A stretch of 64,000 nucleotides of DNA from Maribacter polysaccharolyticus (lineage in GTDB: Bacteria > Bacteroidota > Bacteroidia > Flavobacteriales > Flavobacteriaceae): contig NZ_JARBUY010000006.1 of assembly GCF_028882255.1 (NCBI RefSeq), positions 42,592-106,591 on the forward strand, given 5' to 3'. Position 1 is the first letter of the stretch, and the number at the start of each line of letters is the position of its first letter. A program made the position numbers and the translations under genes. This document shows positions 35,266 through 63,166 of this stretch, piece by piece. The notes below the pieces were generated by a model. The model was not told where the DNA came from, did not search any database, and was given only the letters and a program-made list of their open reading frames with translations.

Positions 35266-36348
35266 CTAGCCTTGCATGATCTTTTCTTGATGATTGATGG
35301 ACTCCTGGTGGATGGCCTTGAACATTCTAAGGACAAACTCCTCACTCAGCCCCTTAGATTCCCCTTCGAGGATCATACTGCCAAGAATGGAATTCCATCG
35401 GTTACTTTGCAGTACCGAAACATTCTTTTGCTTTTTAAGGGCTCCGATCCCGTCTGAAATCTTCATCCGCTTACCAAGCATATCGATCAATTGATTATCT
35501 ATTATATCTATCTGGGCCCTAAGGTTACTCAACTTGCTATTGAATTCGGCCTCTTCATCGGATTCTTTACGGATGCGTAGATCTTTCATAATCTGTACAA
35601 GGGTTTTTGGTGTTACTTGCTGTGCAGCATCACTCCATGCATTATCGGGATCATAATGGGTCTCAATGATGAGTCCGTCAAAATTAAGATCCAATGCTGT
35701 TTGTGAAACGTCAAAGATCATATCCCTATTTCCTGTAATATGTGATGGATCATTGATCAATGGAAGGTCTGGGAATTTGGTCTGTAATTCAATGGCCAAC
35801 TGCCATTCCGGAATATTCCTGTATTTCGATTTCTCGTAAGTGGAAAATCCCCTATGGATAACCCCCAGCTTCTTTATATTCTTGCTATGTAACCTTTCAA
35901 CGGCCCCTAACCATAATGATAGATCCGGGTTTACGGGATTCTTGACCAACACGATCTTATCCGTTCCTTCCAGAGCATCCGCTATTTCCTGTACGATAAA
36001 CGGACTTACCGTAGAACGGGCACCGATCCACAATAAATCGATATCGTGCTCCAAGGCCAATTCAACATGTGCTTTGTTCGCTACTTCGGTTGCGGTCTTT
36101 AAACCGGTTTCTTCCTTTACTTTCTGTAACCATTTAAGGCCCAAAGCGCCAACGCCCTCAAAATTACCAGGACGTGTTCTAGGTTTCCAAATACCGGCCC
36201 TATAGTAGTTTACATCGGTATCTTTAAGTTCGTGGGCTATTTTCAAGACTTGCTCTTCAGTTTCCGCGCTACATGGTCCTGCAATTACTAACGGATGATC
36301 TAGTCCCAAATCATCCAACCATGTTCTCATTTCTTTTGAATTCTCCAT
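35266..36348 (-). CDS. DAHP synthase/chorismate mutase fusion
   Basis: Bifunctional 360-residue enzyme. Residues 1-260 are a KDO8P-type (I-beta) 3-deoxy-7-phosphoheptulonate synthase with VIAGPCSAETEEQ, AGIWKPRTRPG, LLWIGARST, KNPVNPDL and NDPSHITGNRD. Residues 270-360 are an AroQ-type chorismate mutase (LRAQIDIIDNQLIDMLGKRMKISDGIGALKK, key Arg and Lys visible). Fusing the first step of the shikimate pathway to the branch-point mutase allows feedback control by prephenate or chorismate, as in some Bacteroidetes and Bacillus (with opposite order). It is the last gene of the phe/tyr operon. Confidence 0.95.
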   Translation of the reverse strand: MENSKEMRTWLDDLGLDHPLVIAGPCSAETEEQVLKIAHELKDTDVNYYRAGIWKPRTRPGNFEGVGALGLKWLQKVKEETGLKTATEVANKAHVELALEHDIDLLWIGARSTVSPFIVQEIADALEGTDKIVLVKNPVNPDLSLWLGAVERLHSKNIKKLGVIHRGFSTYEKSKYRNIPEWQLAIELQTKFPDLPLINDPSHITGNRDMIFDVSQTALDLNFDGLIIETHYDPDNAWSDAAQQVTPKTLVQIMKDLRIRKESDEEAEFNSKLSNLRAQIDIIDNQLIDMLGKRMKISDGIGALKKQKNVSVLQSNRWNSILGSMILEGESKGLSEEFVLRMFKAIHQESINHQEKIMQG

Positions 36349-36360
36349 TTTACTTTCCTC

Positions 36361-37218
36361 TTATTTGTTCAAAGGTATTCCTTTTAATATTTCCTTGATT
36401 TTATTCGTATTGTTCATTTCATCATAAATGCCGGTATAGTCATCATTGAGCAACAATCGTTTAAACGCTTTCAGATTTTGGATATACTCGTCCAAAGATG
36501 CTACGACATTTTCTTTATTCTGCTCAAAGATGGGGGTCCACATGGCTGGCGAACTTTTTGCCAAACGCACCGTACTTTCAAATCCACTCCCCGCCATGTC
36601 AAAGATATCCCGTTCATTTCTTTCCTTATCAATTACCGTCTTCCCTAACATAAATGAACTTATATGTGACAAATGGGAAACATAGGCGATATGCTTATCG
36701 TGGGCCACGGGGTTCATATACCGTATTCTCATTCCAAGTTCCTGAAAGAGTCCCAAGGCCCTTTCCTGAAGTTTAAAGGCGGTTTTTTCAATCTCACAGA
36801 TAATATTGGTCTTCCCAAGATACAAATTTTCAATGGCCGCGGACGGACCTGAAAATTCGGTACCCGCAATCGGATGGCATGCCAAGAAATTCCTCCGTTT
36901 GGGATGCGCGTCCAAACTTTTACATAAGGCTGCTTTGGTAGAGCCTGCATCGAAGACCACACAATCATCATTTACTTGATCCAATATTTTCGGCAGTTCT
37001 ACCAACATGGCATTCACAGGAATACTTACGATTACGATATCTGCTGAAGGCAAGTCGGCATAACCGGCTTTATTATCGATTAAATCAAGGGCCATTGCCT
37101 CTTCCAGATGCGACACATTGGTATCTATGCCAAATATTTTAGCCTCGGGGTACTTCCGTTTTATATCCTTGGCCATGCTGCCCCCAATTAAACCAATACC
37201 GACTACGAATACATTCAT
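36361..37218 (-). CDS. tyrA: Prephenate dehydrogenase
   Basis: Oxidatively decarboxylates prephenate to 4-hydroxyphenylpyruvate, the tyrosine branch. The NAD-binding loop VGIGLIGGSMAKDIK, DAGSTKAAL, the catalytic HPIAGTEFSG motif and the helical C-terminal dimer domain with AYVSHLSHISSFML are present. 285 residues, without ACT or mutase domain. It is between the aminotransferase (2-bp gap) and the DAHP synthase fusion (12-bp gap). Confidence 0.95.
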   Translation of the reverse strand: MNVFVVGIGLIGGSMAKDIKRKYPEAKIFGIDTNVSHLEEAMALDLIDNKAGYADLPSADIVIVSIPVNAMLVELPKILDQVNDDCVVFDAGSTKAALCKSLDAHPKRRNFLACHPIAGTEFSGPSAAIENLYLGKTNIICEIEKTAFKLQERALGLFQELGMRIRYMNPVAHDKHIAYVSHLSHISSFMLGKTVIDKERNERDIFDMAGSGFESTVRLAKSSPAMWTPIFEQNKENVVASLDEYIQNLKAFKRLLLNDDYTGIYDEMNNTNKIKEILKGIPLNK

Positions 37219-37219
37219 T

Positions 37220-38365
37220 TCAAAACCTATCTAATGCAACTTTTATTTTTTCCTCCTTTACACAAAGTGAAAATCGAATATAACCTTCACCATTACTACC
37301 GAAAATCGTACCTGGGGCAATAAAGATATCCTTATCATAGAGCACCTTATCGATGAAATCCTCTGAAGCCAATGAATTTTCGGGCAATTTTGCCCAAACG
37401 AACATCCCCACGGCATTCTTGTCATAAGTACAGCCGAGTGCATCGGCCAATTCGAAGATCAGCTTCCTTCTACTTTGGTAAACCCCTTCCAAAGATTTAA
37501 ACCAATCCTCCCCACTTTTCAATGCCGCAATGGCTCCTTTCTGAATTCCGTAGAACATTCCCGAATCCATATTGCTCTTTACCTTTAATACCGCATTGAT
37601 ATGGGCTTCATTACCAATGACCATACCCACGCGCCAACCGGCCATATTAAAGGTCTTACTCAAGGAATTCAATTCCAACGCCACTTCCTTTGCCCCATCG
37701 ATGGCCAAAATACTGAAAGGTTCCTTATTGAGAACAAAACTATAGGGGTTATCGTTCACCAAAAGAATATCATTGTCCTTGGCGAATTGGACCAAACTTT
37801 TCAATTGTTCCCTGTTGGCCGTGGTCCCTGTAGGCATATGGGGGTAGCAGACCCACATTATCCTTACTTTTGACAAATCCTGTTGTCCCAAAGCTTCCAA
37901 ATCGGGAAACCAACCATTTTCCGCATTCAGATCGTATTGCCTGGGGATGGCCCCTACCAACTTTGTTACCGAAGTATAGGTCGGGTAACCGGGATTGGGT
38001 ATCAACACCTCATCCCCAACATTCAAAAAGGCCATACTGATATGCATAATCCCTTCTTTGGACCCCATTAGGGGTAAAATTTCGGTAAGGGGATCGGCAG
38101 CTACACCGAACTTTGTGTTATAAAAATCAGCAAATCCTTCCCTCAGTTCCGGCAATCCTTGATAACTCTGGTACTGATGCGCCCCTTGATCGGTCAATGA
38201 ATCGGTAATGGCATTTATCACCGCTTCCGAAGGTGCCAGATCGGGACTTCCTATTCCCATATTGATTATCGGCTTACCCGCAGCAATGAGTCCACGTACC
38301 TCCCTCAACTTCTTGGAGAAGTAGTACTCTTCAACCGTTTTCAATCTATCGGCGGTTACTATCAT
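37220..38365 (-). CDS. Class I/II PLP-dependent aminotransferase, probably aromatic
   Basis: 381 residues with the fold-type I layout: substrate-region NMGIGSPDLAPS, NPGYPTYTS, WVCYPHMPTGTTA, NDNPYSFV and the PLP lysine in ELNSLSKTFNMAGWRVGM (near residue 235). It is related to aspartate, LL-DAP and aromatic aminotransferases. Its position between prephenate dehydratase and dehydrogenase suggests it converts phenylpyruvate and hydroxyphenylpyruvate to Phe and Tyr; this is inferred from context. Start overlaps the pheA stop by 4 bp. Confidence 0.9.
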   Translation of the reverse strand: MIVTADRLKTVEEYYFSKKLREVRGLIAAGKPIINMGIGSPDLAPSEAVINAITDSLTDQGAHQYQSYQGLPELREGFADFYNTKFGVAADPLTEILPLMGSKEGIMHISMAFLNVGDEVLIPNPGYPTYTSVTKLVGAIPRQYDLNAENGWFPDLEALGQQDLSKVRIMWVCYPHMPTGTTANREQLKSLVQFAKDNDILLVNDNPYSFVLNKEPFSILAIDGAKEVALELNSLSKTFNMAGWRVGMVIGNEAHINAVLKVKSNMDSGMFYGIQKGAIAALKSGEDWFKSLEGVYQSRRKLIFELADALGCTYDKNAVGMFVWAKLPENSLASEDFIDKVLYDKDIFIAPGTIFGSNGEGYIRFSLCVKEEKIKVALDRF

Positions 38366-39189
38366 ATTCTTGCATTTTTATATTCCCCCAAAACCTTGAG
38401 ATCATGGGACATGATTTTCAAGAGCGATTTTGCTTTTGCAAAATTATCATATTCATCAAAGGTCACATCAACAAAAAAGGCATATTTCCAAGGAGATTCG
38501 ATTATTGGCAAGGATTGTATCTTCGTCAGGTTCAGATTGCAATCACTCATCACATTCAATACGGTTGCGAGACTGCCCCGTTTATGATCCGTAACAAAGC
38601 GCACCGAAGCCTTATTGATTTCATTTTTCGGCAACTCCTTGTTCTTCGTCTTTACGATAATGAATCGGGTCGAATTGTCTTTTATGGTCTGTATTTGAGG
38701 GGCGATGATCTCCAGGTGGTATAAATCGGCCGCCACTGCCGGGGCGATAGCCGCAATCCCCTTGAGTTGTTTATCGTGAATCTGTTTGGCGGTCTCCGCA
38801 GTATCCACATCCTCTACCATTTTTATATGCGGATAGGTCTTTAAAAATTCACGGCATTGCAAGAGGGCCATGGGATGGGAACGCACCTCGGAAATTTCTT
38901 GGATCGATTGCCCTTCCAACGCCATTAAATTATGATTGATGTTCAGATAGTACTCCCCGATAATGTGAAGGTTTTTATCATTGACAAGGGCATAATTCGG
39001 GATTATGGATCCCGCGATGGAGTTTTCAATGGCCATTACCCCTTTATCCGCCGTGGCATCCAACAAGCAGTCGACCAAGTTATGAAACGACATGCACTCT
39101 ACGAGTTCACATGTGTCATTAAAATAATCCAAGGCTACCTGATGATGGTTAGACCCTTTGATTCCCTGTATGGCTATCTTTAAACCCAT
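38362..39189 (-). CDS. pheA: Prephenate dehydratase
   Basis: Converts prephenate to phenylpyruvate. The catalytic domain (1-180) holds the TRF motif (NSTRFIIVKT), and the C-terminal ACT domain has a GSLATVL variant of the Phe-binding GALxxxL and an ESPWKYAFFVD variant of ESRP, so allosteric Phe binding is likely. About 275 residues; the ATG at 39189 (MGLKIAIQGIKG) fits the family, and the upstream opening at 39231 falls inside the leader terminator. First gene of the operon, preceded by a leader-peptide attenuator. Confidence 0.94.
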   Translation of the reverse strand: MGLKIAIQGIKGSNHHQVALDYFNDTCELVECMSFHNLVDCLLDATADKGVMAIENSIAGSIIPNYALVNDKNLHIIGEYYLNINHNLMALEGQSIQEISEVRSHPMALLQCREFLKTYPHIKMVEDVDTAETAKQIHDKQLKGIAAIAPAVAADLYHLEIIAPQIQTIKDNSTRFIIVKTKNKELPKNEINKASVRFVTDHKRGSLATVLNVMSDCNLNLTKIQSLPIIESPWKYAFFVDVTFDEYDNFAKAKSLLKIMSHDLKVLGEYKNARI

Positions 39190-39229
39190 TTTTTTTCCAT
39201 TGGTTATATGTAACCGACATTTTTTTAAC

Positions 39230-39256
39230 AAAAAAAGTCCCGTTTTTCACGGGACT
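39230..39256 (-). terminator. Attenuator terminator before pheA
   Basis: AGTCCCGT (39256-39249) pairs with ACGGGACT (39243-39236) around a GAAAA loop, followed by six T residues on the minus strand. It lies 41 bp before the pheA start, inside the leader, and its 5' arm can pair alternatively with an upstream copy of ACGGGACT. Confidence 0.88.
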
Positions 39257-39299
39257 CAATGTTATATTTTTTGTTTGCAATACACTACAACAGTCCCGT
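39236..39299 (-). promoter_or_regulatory. Antiterminator/terminator switch of the phe operon leader
   Basis: Three mutually exclusive segments on the minus strand: segment 2, ACGGGACT at 39299-39292 (inside the last leader codons); segment 3, AGTCCCGT at 39256-39249; segment 4, ACGGGACT at 39243-39236. Segments 2:3 make an 8-bp antiterminator with a 35-nt loop; 3:4 make the 8-bp terminator. A ribosome that finishes the leader covers segment 2 and permits 3:4; a ribosome stalled at the Phe codons leaves segment 2 free to capture 3. Confidence 0.82.
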
Positions 39300-39356
39300 T
39301 TCCTTCCTAAAAAAGAAGAAAAAATAAAAACCGTTATAGAAATACTGCTTTCTCAT
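39285..39356 (-). CDS. Phe leader peptide
   Basis: A 23-codon frame, ATG (39356) to TAG (39287-39285). It begins MRKQYFYNGF and contains seven Phe (positions 6, 10 and 12-16) and three Tyr (5, 7, 11), five of the Phe in an unbroken run, and ends Gly-Leu-Leu. The control codons lie 10 bp before the antiterminator segment, and codons 20-22 are themselves part of that segment. This is the design of enterobacterial pheA, pheST and trp leaders. The peptide product has no function apart from translation. No strong Shine-Dalgarno is seen, normal for this phylum. A possible -7 element (TAGACTTTG, one base too long) lies about 50 bp upstream. Confidence 0.85.
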   Translation of the reverse strand: MRKQYFYNGFYFFFFFRKETGLL

Positions 39357-39480
39357 TATCTTGAAAATCTGCGGCTAAGGTAATTATTAAATTTAAAAAA
39401 CTAATTCAAAGTCTATCTTTTTTTTATTTTTTTCTGAAAAAACTGCTATTGCGCTGTTTTTTACGATGATAAACCCGATT

Positions 39481-40578
39481 TTATTGGCAATCGCTTAACA
39501 TTATCGCCACCGATTTATCCAACACATCCTGTATTCTTGGGTTCGTACAATTGGTCAGGATGGAAAAAACCATCCCCTCATTGGGGTAGATGAACAAATT
39601 GGAATAGCCTCCAACCCCATTCCCTATATGGCCAAAATACGATCGGCCCTCCGCATCCTGGCTTACCTGCCAACCCAAACCGTAGTAAGTGGATGCGCCA
39701 TTTATTTTTTGGGCCGTTAAAAATTCGGAGACCAACGCATCGCCCAATACCCCTTCTTTTAAATAGGCCTGACCGAACTTGGCTATATCATCTGCGGTTG
39801 ACAAATAACCGCCACCAGCAATTTTATACCGATTATTTACCGGTATCGCCTTATAAAACCCCGATTTTCTTCGGGAATAGAATTCAACCAAATGGCGATC
39901 ACCCTTTCCCATTTCCACTCGATCCCTGGATATACCATTTTCCCCAAACGTATTGGAAAGTCCTAAAGGCACCAATACCTTTTCCTTTACATAGTCCTCA
40001 AAAGGCACCCCGCTGGCCTCCTGCATGGCCAATGATATCAGTACCCAATCATAACTGTTATACTGATAACCGGTTCCCGGTTTAAAAAGCAGGTCATCAT
40101 CCTTGAAGATCCTTAAGCCATCCTTGATGGTATAGGGCTCATCCAACCCATATTCCCTTCCTTTATACCCTCGGATCCCTGCGGTGTGGCCGGCCAATTG
40201 ACGAATGGTAAAATCATGTTCTTTCTTCGGAAAGTAGGGCACATAATCGTATAGGGAAGCATCCAGATCAATAGTCCCTTCCTTCACCATATGAACCAGG
40301 GCCGTTGCCGCAATGTTTTTCGAAATACTGGCTATCCTGAACACGGTGTGTCGGGGATCTACTTTTATCCCTGCTTCCAAATCCGCATATCCGTAGCCTT
40401 TTTGATACCATATTCCACCATTCTTACGTACGGTAATTGCCAAACCGGGTACCCTCTTTTCGGTAATCAGCGCATTGAGCAGATCATCGACTTCCTCCAG
40501 CCTTTTTAAGGGCCTTTCCTGCGATGGTCCACTTATGGGTATCCATAGATTTTTCAGATATGCGATAAAGGATTTCAA
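39481..40578 (-). CDS. Serine hydrolase of the beta-lactamase/PBP4 family
   Basis: 365 residues of the class C beta-lactamase-like fold. Catalytic SxxK is Ser84-Ile-Ser-Lys87 (RIASISKN), the YxN motif is YQYNSYDW, and the third motif is GHIGNGVGGYSN in place of KTG. Such proteins are esterases, D-aminopeptidases or peptidases and rarely true beta-lactamases. No signal peptide is visible, so it may be cytoplasmic, or the true N-terminus may be missed; the only start in frame after the upstream stop is TTG. It lies directly before the phe leader. Confidence 0.85.
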   Translation of the reverse strand: MKSFIAYLKNLWIPISGPSQERPLKRLEEVDDLLNALITEKRVPGLAITVRKNGGIWYQKGYGYADLEAGIKVDPRHTVFRIASISKNIAATALVHMVKEGTIDLDASLYDYVPYFPKKEHDFTIRQLAGHTAGIRGYKGREYGLDEPYTIKDGLRIFKDDDLLFKPGTGYQYNSYDWVLISLAMQEASGVPFEDYVKEKVLVPLGLSNTFGENGISRDRVEMGKGDRHLVEFYSRRKSGFYKAIPVNNRYKIAGGGYLSTADDIAKFGQAYLKEGVLGDALVSEFLTAQKINGASTYYGLGWQVSQDAEGRSYFGHIGNGVGGYSNLFIYPNEGMVFSILTNCTNPRIQDVLDKSVAIMLSDCQ

Positions 40579-47592: not shown

Positions 47593-47823
47593 GCCTCCTA
47601 TTTTGCAAAAATATTCTTTTCCGTATTCGTCCTTTTGTATTTCATACCCTTACACACCCTCAAGATAAAAGTTTGTAGCGGAACTTTAATATGACACAAG
47701 CCGTTTGAAAACTCACGTACTACTAAATTAATTCCACAGTCCTACCATCTATTCCGCTGGAAATGGCTTCGTACGATTGTTGTTACTTGATCAAGGAAAG
47801 GGTGAGACAGATGTCTTTTTTTG
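47593..47823 (-). other. Leader between the SAM-I aptamer and metH
   Basis: About 230 bp without a gene. Just after the aptamer is a small AGACA/TGTCT hairpin. No terminator with a U-run and no clear Shine-Dalgarno sequestration is visible, so how the riboswitch acts cannot be read from sequence. Confidence 0.35.
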
Positions 47824-47940
47824 GTTATCTTCCACGCCTGAATTGTGATAGAATGTAGCACCTTCTTGTCCCCTGTTATGGATTGGGAAAAGGGTTGCCA
47901 AGGTTTCTTTGGGTCTAGTCCCTCCGCCTTTCTTGATAAC
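47824..47940 (-). ncRNA. SAM-I riboswitch (S box) of the metH operon
   Basis: The minus strand has the conserved SAM-I core in order: P1 GTTATC (47940-47935) with GATAAC (47829-47824), then AAGAAAGGCGGAGGGAC, GACCC, GAAACCTTGGCAACC, AAGAAGGTGCTACATTC, and a P4 stem CAC/GTG. These match the S-box consensus (GAGGGA, GGCAACC, GGTGCTA). The aptamer binds SAM and lowers expression of methionine genes. Confidence 0.93.
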
Positions 47941-47962
47941 TTTTTCAACGTACTAAAGAACT

Positions 47963-61494: not shown

Positions 61495-61635
61495 GTTATC
61501 TATTCTTGACCGATTCGGTGCTGTGACCCCGAAGCTTCGGGCAGCATCAAGATAGAATTTAGCACCTTCTTTACATTGGACGTAAAGGGTTGCTAAGGCT
61601 TCAAAGGGTCTATTCCCTCCACCTTTCTTGATAAC
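61495..61635 (-). ncRNA. SAM-I riboswitch (S box) of the metY operon
   Basis: Minus strand: P1 GTTATC (61635-61630) with GATAAC (61500-61495); core AAGAAAGGTGGAGGGAA, GACCC, GAAGCCTTAGCAACC, AAGAAGGTGCTAAATTC. All invariant SAM-I blocks are present. P4 is unusually long: CTTGA/TCAAG and GCTG/CAGC stems around a perfect CCCGAAGCTTCGGG palindrome. A hairpin AATTACA/TGTAATT follows (61471-61488), without a good U-run. Confidence 0.93.
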
Positions 61636-61664
61636 AATTCAATTTGTGTTTGAACTTTGAACGG

Positions 61665-62965: not shown

Positions 62966-63040
62966 TTTCGATTTAATTTACAGGAGGAAACAAGAGAAAG
63001 ATTGCGAAAAAGGCGAATATACCGAAAGACATCGGCTATT

Positions 63041-63155
63041 ACTGCTTTAGCATTTTTACAATACCGAACAAACTACGGTATCCGGCTCCTTTTGGAACCA
63101 GGTCCTAAAGTATTTTTAGGACTATGAGGTTGCAATCAGTCAAATCTTTCCTCTC
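63041..63155 (-). ncRNA. SAM-II-type riboswitch with long loops, upstream of metK
   Basis: On the minus strand, P1 GAGG (63153-63150) and CCTC (63129-63126) enclose GATTTGACTGATTGCAA, matching the SAM-II loop. The 3' element TGCTAAAGCAGT (63052-63041) matches the SAM-II GCTAAA block, and its CAGT can pair with ACTG (63140-63137) to give the required pseudoknot. Three extra hairpins fill the connecting loop: GTCCTAAA/TTTAGGAC, CTGG..CC/GG..CCGG and ATACCG/CGGTAT. A long-loop SAM-II class has, as I recall, been described by comparative genomics in Bacteroidetes. Confidence 0.75.
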
Positions 63156-63166
63156 AAGATTGGGGA

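Follow-up and report, generated by a model that had tools for sequence, protein, structure and literature searches.

A probable Phe/Tyr leader-peptide attenuator upstream of the pheA operon of Maribacter polysaccharolyticus, with counterparts across Bacteroidia

Does the short reading frame that precedes pheA in Maribacter polysaccharolyticus encode a leader peptide through which a translating ribosome could control transcription of an aromatic amino acid operon? We addressed this question in a 64,000-nucleotide stretch of contig NZ_JARBUY010000006.1 (hereafter the window), for which a sequence-only reading had proposed a Phe/Tyr leader followed by three RNA segments and a U-run. The frame, MRKQYFYNGFYFFFFFRKETGLL, lies on the minus strand at 39285-39356 and runs from ATG to TAG. 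As proposed, its 23 codons include seven for Phe, five of them consecutive, and three for Tyr. Segment 3 (AGTCCCGT, 39249-39256) is predicted to pair either with segment 2 (ACGGGACT, 39292-39299), giving an antiterminator, or with segment 4 (ACGGGACT, 39236-39243), which has the same letters as segment 2, giving an intrinsic terminator that is completed by a T7 run at 39230-39236; all of these lie on the minus strand. The sequence and a terminator scan both agreed with the proposed segments and U-run, since the scan of 39000-39600 returned precisely the 3:4 hairpin, with nine pairs at 39257-39235 (shuffle mean 0.4). The proposed overlap of segment 2 with the final leader codons was likewise correct, 39299-39292 corresponding to codons 20-22.

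Folding predictions added a structure that was absent from the earlier reading. Segment 1 (39327-39339, minus strand), read from the predicted fold, extends from the last base of codon 6 to codon 10 and finds its partners in segment 2 and the stop-codon region, so that segment 2 is sequestered in a predicted 1:2 hairpin. The predicted fold from the leader ATG through segment 3 reached -29.2 kcal/mol. A 142-nt strand folded at -49.2 kcal/mol into the 1:2 hairpin and the 3:4 terminator, compared with -23.9 +/- 3.67 kcal/mol for its shuffles (z -6.9).

Downstream on the same strand, Pfam matches bore out the expected gene order of pheA, aminotransferase, tyrA, and DAHP synthase/chorismate mutase. 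The pheA gene for prephenate dehydratase (38362-39189; PDT, 193 bits) probably includes an ACT domain, whose match of 22 bits is below its cut-off of 27. It is followed by a class I/II aminotransferase gene (37220-38365; 203.6 bits), tyrA for prephenate dehydrogenase (36361-37218; PDH_N 107.2 bits, PDH_C 84.2 bits), and a gene for DAHP synthase fused to chorismate mutase (35266-36348; DAHP_synth_1 131.2 bits, CM_2 75.3 bits). When both of the locus sets described below were pooled, an aminotransferase homologue was present on the same strand at 132 of 133 family loci.

We examined regions upstream of pheA in two samples, 12 genomes of the genus and 120 of the family, 102 of the latter carrying PheA. 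This yielded 112 loci (12 from the genus and 100 others from the family), with one second, weak PheA (L013) left out. Under the criterion of a short frame with at least six Phe/Tyr in 10 residues, a leader preceded pheA at 107 of the 112 loci. All 107 leaders were followed by an intrinsic terminator, consisting of a hairpin and a T run, before pheA, and in 91 of them segment 3 formed a duplex with the leader end (segment 2) at z <= -2. Among the misses, L111 is truncated by a contig end, its sequence beginning inside the leader, and no leader was found in the upstream stretch examined at L022, L062, L073, and L112. As a chance control, 2,240 dinucleotide shuffles of the 112 upstream regions contained 117 with at least six Phe/Tyr in 10, 15 with at least seven, and two with eight, which is the score of the leader in the window; the reverse strands of the same regions gave a qualifying frame in 5 of 112. 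A second set, comprising the best 80 loci from named genomes and overlapping with the first, spanned Flavobacterium, Maribacter, Arenibacter, Zobellia, Flagellimonas, Cellulophaga, Tenacibaculum, Polaribacter, and others, and contained a leader at all 79 loci with upstream sequence.

Merging the overlapping locus sets by identical region gave 218 distinct leaders, after frames with fewer than six Phe/Tyr in 10 and, with one exception, non-ATG starts were left out. At least four consecutive Phe/Tyr codons were found in 215 of these, and all four codons were in use across the set (TTT 787, TTC 413, TAT 554, and TAC 166). A Trp codon was present in 118 of the 218 leaders and in none of those at the 12 loci of the genus to which the window belongs.

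If the frame is to act as a leader, transcription has to begin upstream of it. A probable -7 promoter box of the Bacteroidetes type TAnnTTTG (TACCTTAG, 39375-39382, minus strand) lies 26 nt 5' of the leader ATG, and a weak, possible -33 element, TTG, lies 24 nt 5' of this box (39407-39409, minus strand). The same motif is given as the sigma-A -7 consensus of Flavobacterium psychrophilum in the text of PMC9723704. Of the 218 distinct leaders, 196 had TAnnTTnG within 60 nt 5' of their ATG, mostly at -24 to -27, versus 557 of 4,360 mononucleotide shuffles. As a raw count, a TTG was found 17-25 nt 5' of the box in 156 of the 197 leaders with a box inside 75 nt. A transcription start 3' of the leader, which the sequence-only reading had named as evidence against itself, is thus not indicated by the sequence. 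In addition, a beta-lactamase-fold gene (Pfam PF00144, 39481-40578) on the same strand has its 3' end just upstream of the leader region, and read-through from it into this region is possible. An SD-like 4-mer was detected in just four of the 218 leaders, meaning that these leaders begin without Shine-Dalgarno help; A was enriched 5' of the start at positions -3 (0.74) and -6 (0.60).

We then analyzed whether the paired segments change together among relatives, a check that the sequence-only reading had proposed. For this, 216 of the 218 leaders were used as rows, two with a distant terminator (L137 and L167) being left out. Standard pairs between segments 3 and 4 were found in 213 to 216 of the 216 rows at all seven columns. 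Between segments 3 and 2, pairing was seen in 202 to 216 rows at the five inner columns, falling to 161 and 155 at the outer two. Whole triples of segments 2, 3, and 4 switched jointly: G-C-G became A-T-A in 44 rows at one column and in 30 at another, and C-G-C became T-A-T in 41 rows.

Because segment 2 had been located as the best complement of segment 3, which biases the comparison toward 2:3 pairing, we carried out two further tests, a segment swap and an analysis on a PheA tree. In the swap, leader ends bound their own segment 3 at a mean of -9.12 kcal/mol versus -5.62 for other segment 3 types; the own segment 3 ranked in the top tenth for 141 of 216 leaders and beat all other types in just 14. 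The PheA tree covered the 145 rows with a full gene. For segments 2 and 3, independent tree pairs amounted to 19.1 with concordant change, 2.3 with opposite change, and 10.6 with none, and for segments 4 and 3 to 22.6, 0.1, and 9.3, respectively, each figure being summed over seven columns on one shared tree. Single-column tree tests at four columns gave no significance among the results listed, the independent pairs being too few. Together with the triple switches, the concordant pairs amount to changes shared by the segments, and relatives keep both the Phe/Tyr run and the alternative stems, contrary to the outcome that the sequence-only reading had named as refuting it.

Other approaches recovered less of this structure. 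With 30 aligned leaders, RNAalifold and a covariance model recovered the terminator as the sole structure, and inspection of the MAFFT alignment by eye revealed that segment 2 is displaced by one base between lineages. The core of segment 2 was paired with the upstream part of the leader in 203 of 216 predicted folds versus 681 of 1,080 folds in which the upstream part was shuffled, at -19.4 and -13.1 kcal/mol, respectively. These predictions suggest that 1:2 pairing is only partly above what composition would lead one to expect.

The spacing between control codons and segment 2 was a further conserved feature. Measured from its first base to the core of segment 2, the last Phe/Tyr codon preceding that segment lay 12-14 nt away in 170 of the 216 leaders and 13 nt away in the window. 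A ribosome reaches about 12-13 nt beyond its A site, so a ribosome with this codon in the A site would halt just short of segment 2 and leave it free. In the window, Phe/Tyr codons 5, 6, 7, 10, and 11 overlap or adjoin segment 1, with codons 12-16 coming just past it; a waiting ribosome would for this reason hinder 1:2 pairing as well. A Phe/Tyr codon in or beyond segment 2 was observed in 79 of 216 leaders.

The stop codon stood at more variable distances from segment 2, with peaks at 11, 16, and 21 nt. Masking of segment 2 by a ribosome at the stop codon fits the geometry of the window (11 nt) and of 127 of the 216 leaders. In the remaining 89, segment 2 starts at least 16 nt before the stop (46 at 16-17 nt, 37 at 18-24 nt, and 6 further), and such a ribosome would therefore not clearly cover all of it. 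A 7-base search puts segment 2 in the wrong place at a few loci of group f9 (L131, L134, and L135) and probably in trp leaders too.

Based on the leader, segments, covariation, spacing, promoter box, and operon, all of them features of the sequence, we consider it very probable that transcription of the pheA-aminotransferase-tyrA-DAHP synthase/chorismate mutase operon is subject to ribosome-mediated attenuation at this locus. It combines a short ORF rich in codons for the products of the operon with a terminator and an antiterminator that are mutually exclusive by sequence and predicted pairing. From these features we infer regulation, ribosome stalling, an actual switch between the stems, and the sensing of both end products; sensing of Tyr alongside Phe would fit the codons.

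The proposed mechanism would run as follows. Transcription would begin shortly 5' of the leader ATG, with a ribosome trailing RNA polymerase. When charged Phe-tRNA and Tyr-tRNA are ample, the ribosome would reach the stop codon and mask segment 2, or the 1:2 hairpin would re-form behind it; with segment 2 unavailable in either way, 3:4 would form and transcription would terminate in the T run. When either charged tRNA is scarce, the ribosome would pause on the Phe/Tyr codons, on or just past segment 1, with its front edge just short of segment 2. Segment 2 would then pair with segment 3, no terminator would form, and the operon would be transcribed. If the leader were not translated at all, 1:2 and 3:4 would both form, and termination would be expected.

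Leaders of other biosynthetic operons bear on this reading. The leader before trpE in this genome, MKINGANTWWWNNLRKTS (L271, 2018-2134), matched the Rfam family RF01692 at 72 bits (gathering score 49), and trpE leaders contained WWW at 9 of 12 loci and WW at one, with none found at two. The hisG leader of the same genome (L283) is MKNNNTHHHFFTCSQAR, and hisG leaders (L281-L291) contained HHH at 10 of 11 loci and HH at one, accompanied by a strong terminator and mostly by a complementary segment. Codon identity thus tracks the operon, given that trpE leaders carry WWW and hisG leaders HHH.

This bears directly on the possibility that the pheA leader frame is incidental, in which case basal expression would be tuned by a terminator, constitutive or partial, whose core is repeated, and the Phe/Tyr codons would be only U-rich structural sequence. 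Such an account can draw on the very T-rich region and on the 117 of 2,240 shuffles that qualified at six or more Phe/Tyr. However, this account is at odds with runs of at least four Phe/Tyr codons in 215 of 218 leaders in which TTT, TTC, TAT, and TAC are mixed, and with the WWW and HHH runs before trpE and hisG, and we regard an incidental frame as very unlikely. We give even less credence to a metabolite riboswitch or a protein-binding attenuator, in which a ligand or an RNA-binding protein rather than the ribosome would switch the stems. SAM riboswitches do occur elsewhere in the window, and a terminator with an antiterminator would by itself be compatible with a riboswitch; however, the alignment of 30 leaders showed by eye no conserved block beyond the leader's reading frame and the three segments, no Rfam family reached its gathering score at 18 pheA loci, and the features that are conserved are the Phe/Tyr codons and the spacing between them and segment 2.

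The leader might also set the translation of pheA by coupling or re-initiation, rather than termination. An ORF does stand 5' of pheA, and the text of PMC4833913 proposes re-initiation at leader genes for bacteria including Bacteroidetes, with a distance peak of 11-14 bp for the latter. The 95 nt between the leader stop and the pheA ATG (39189) are far above this peak and contain the terminator hairpin and T run, which makes a coupling role extremely improbable. Ribosome-mediated attenuation is thus the reading we retain.

We further extended our analysis beyond the family. In the order, 23 loci were taken from 24 PheA-bearing genomes outside the family (G178 was left out), one of which (L136) was not testable with merely 14 nt of upstream sequence. 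A leader, a terminator, and a complementary segment 2 were found together at 11 of the 22 testable loci, three of them (L119-L121) with five rather than six Phe/Tyr in 10. No attenuator was found in groups f5 (five loci with a distant PheA), f16 (four loci, genome size 0.6 Mb), and f12 (one locus), and the single locus of f13 is doubtful. Four genomes of about 0.6 Mb (L128, L129, L130, and L132) retained pheA and the aminotransferase gene with no attenuator seen, as if reduced genomes were losing this control. A leader-like match at L128 was discounted, having a GTG start and no terminator, as were those at L137 and L167, whose terminators lie at distances of 162 and 198 nt.

In the rest of the class outside the order, 13 of 16 loci had an attenuator, and L167 is doubtful. 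Two loci of family f22 (L150 and L151) had no leader, and their pheA overlaps the 3' end of an EPSP synthase gene; their PheA clustered with that of f15 and of the family of the window (support 94). Two other genomes of f22 (L166 and L168) retained the leader. The tree placement suggests that pheA at L150 and L151 is likely a replacement by transfer. In other classes, we examined 19 of the 95 PheA-bearing genomes in the phylum sample, three of them chosen for having the closest PheA and the other 16 picked by hand. A leader was found in three (L153, L154, and L164) and in none of the other 16; at L164 the 2:3 duplex was weak (z -1.8). PheA from these three was nested with Bacteroidia of f17-f19 (support 97), a placement that suggests transfer despite long terminal branches.

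The 12-14 nt spacing recurred at 11 of 13 positive loci of the class outside the order and at two of eight order loci outside the family, three of the remainder reflecting a misplaced segment 2. At the three loci outside the class, the spacing was 17, 11, and 21 nt, in no case 12-14. A covariance model built from 30 leaders gave one strong site in the genome of the window (126.9 bits; the next scored 36.2), and none of the four weaker matches inspected in that genome (L293-L296) lay before pheA. In the class sample, it matched 39 of 149 genomes at E <= 0.01. Of 12 class-sample matches inspected, including the own genome and three family genomes, nine lay before pheA and three elsewhere (L299, L305, and L306), and we rejected the model as an unreliable class-wide detector.

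These distributions allow a broader, tentative idea: an old attenuator of Bacteroidia may read Phe, Tyr, and Trp at once, with the 12-14 nt interval as a ribosome ruler, and may travel with pheA between classes. We consider this idea possible, and rather unlikely. It is favored by the Phe and Tyr codons that are nearly always present, the Trp codon that 118 of the 218 leaders contain, and the DAHP synthase in the operon of the window, which makes the common precursor; for travel between classes, it draws on the three loci outside the class whose PheA nests among Bacteroidia. Against it stand the 12 own-genus loci, which have no Trp codon, and the relatedness of the leaders, which are not independent cases. 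The analysis provides a concrete anatomy for aromatic amino acid control in a large bacterial group, and the conserved spacing makes possible a quantitative test of the reach of a stalled ribosome in these bacteria.

The pheA element had already been noticed at the level of Flavobacteriaceae and is not wholly new. The text of a 2021 transcriptome study of F. psychrophilum (PMC9723704) gives strong clues for leader-peptide attenuation 5' of amino acid biosynthesis operons, names a conserved hisG 5' element, and describes a structured 5' element of pheA, found in other Flavobacteriaceae genera too and without an Rfam hit. That element precedes the same gene in the same bacterial family as the present leader; the section on pheA lists neither a leader sequence nor segments or codons for it, and the supplements of the paper may hold more. 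Within the main-text PMC literature, we found no account of pheA leader anatomy in Bacteroidetes. The sequence-only reading had called ribosome-mediated attenuation little described in this group; this is overstated, because RF01692 covers the trp leader and PMC9723704 gives the clues just mentioned. Relative to the literature found, the new elements are the anatomy, covariation, and spacing rule, the mixture of Phe and Tyr and often Trp codons, and the class-wide reach.

A search of the whole window with Rfam at the gathering threshold gave no match at the leader. Elsewhere in the window, three riboswitches (two SAM, RF00162, and one SAM-II, RF01726) are located at 47822-47942, 61521-61637, and 63037-63159, all on the minus strand. 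Among 601 bases searched at E up to 10, there were twelve sub-threshold matches, led by Phe_leader (27.2 bits) and Trp_leader (23.2 bits). Bacteroid-trp (RF01692; gathering score 49), listed in a passage of Weinberg et al. 2010 (PMC2864571), was absent from these matches; it is a leader-peptide attenuator of Bacteroidetes like the pheA leader, with Trp codons and the trp operon instead. The hisG leader of the same genus resembles the pheA leader in being short, with a His run, a terminator, and a complementary segment, and differs in amino acid and operon; it too reached no Rfam gathering score.

The enterobacterial pheA leader encodes a Phe-rich peptide and forms 1:2, 2:3, and 3:4 alternatives 5' of pheA. 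Its Rfam model (RF01859 Phe_leader, positions 1-125) aligned over its whole length to the leader in the window at 27.2 bits (E 0.023 for 601 bases), below the gathering score of 55, which none of the 18 pheA loci reached; with no gathering-score match at these loci, the pheA leader is a candidate for registration as an RNA family. Compared with the enterobacterial leader, that of M. polysaccharolyticus mixes in Tyr codons, and its operon adds tyrA and DAHP synthase/chorismate mutase.
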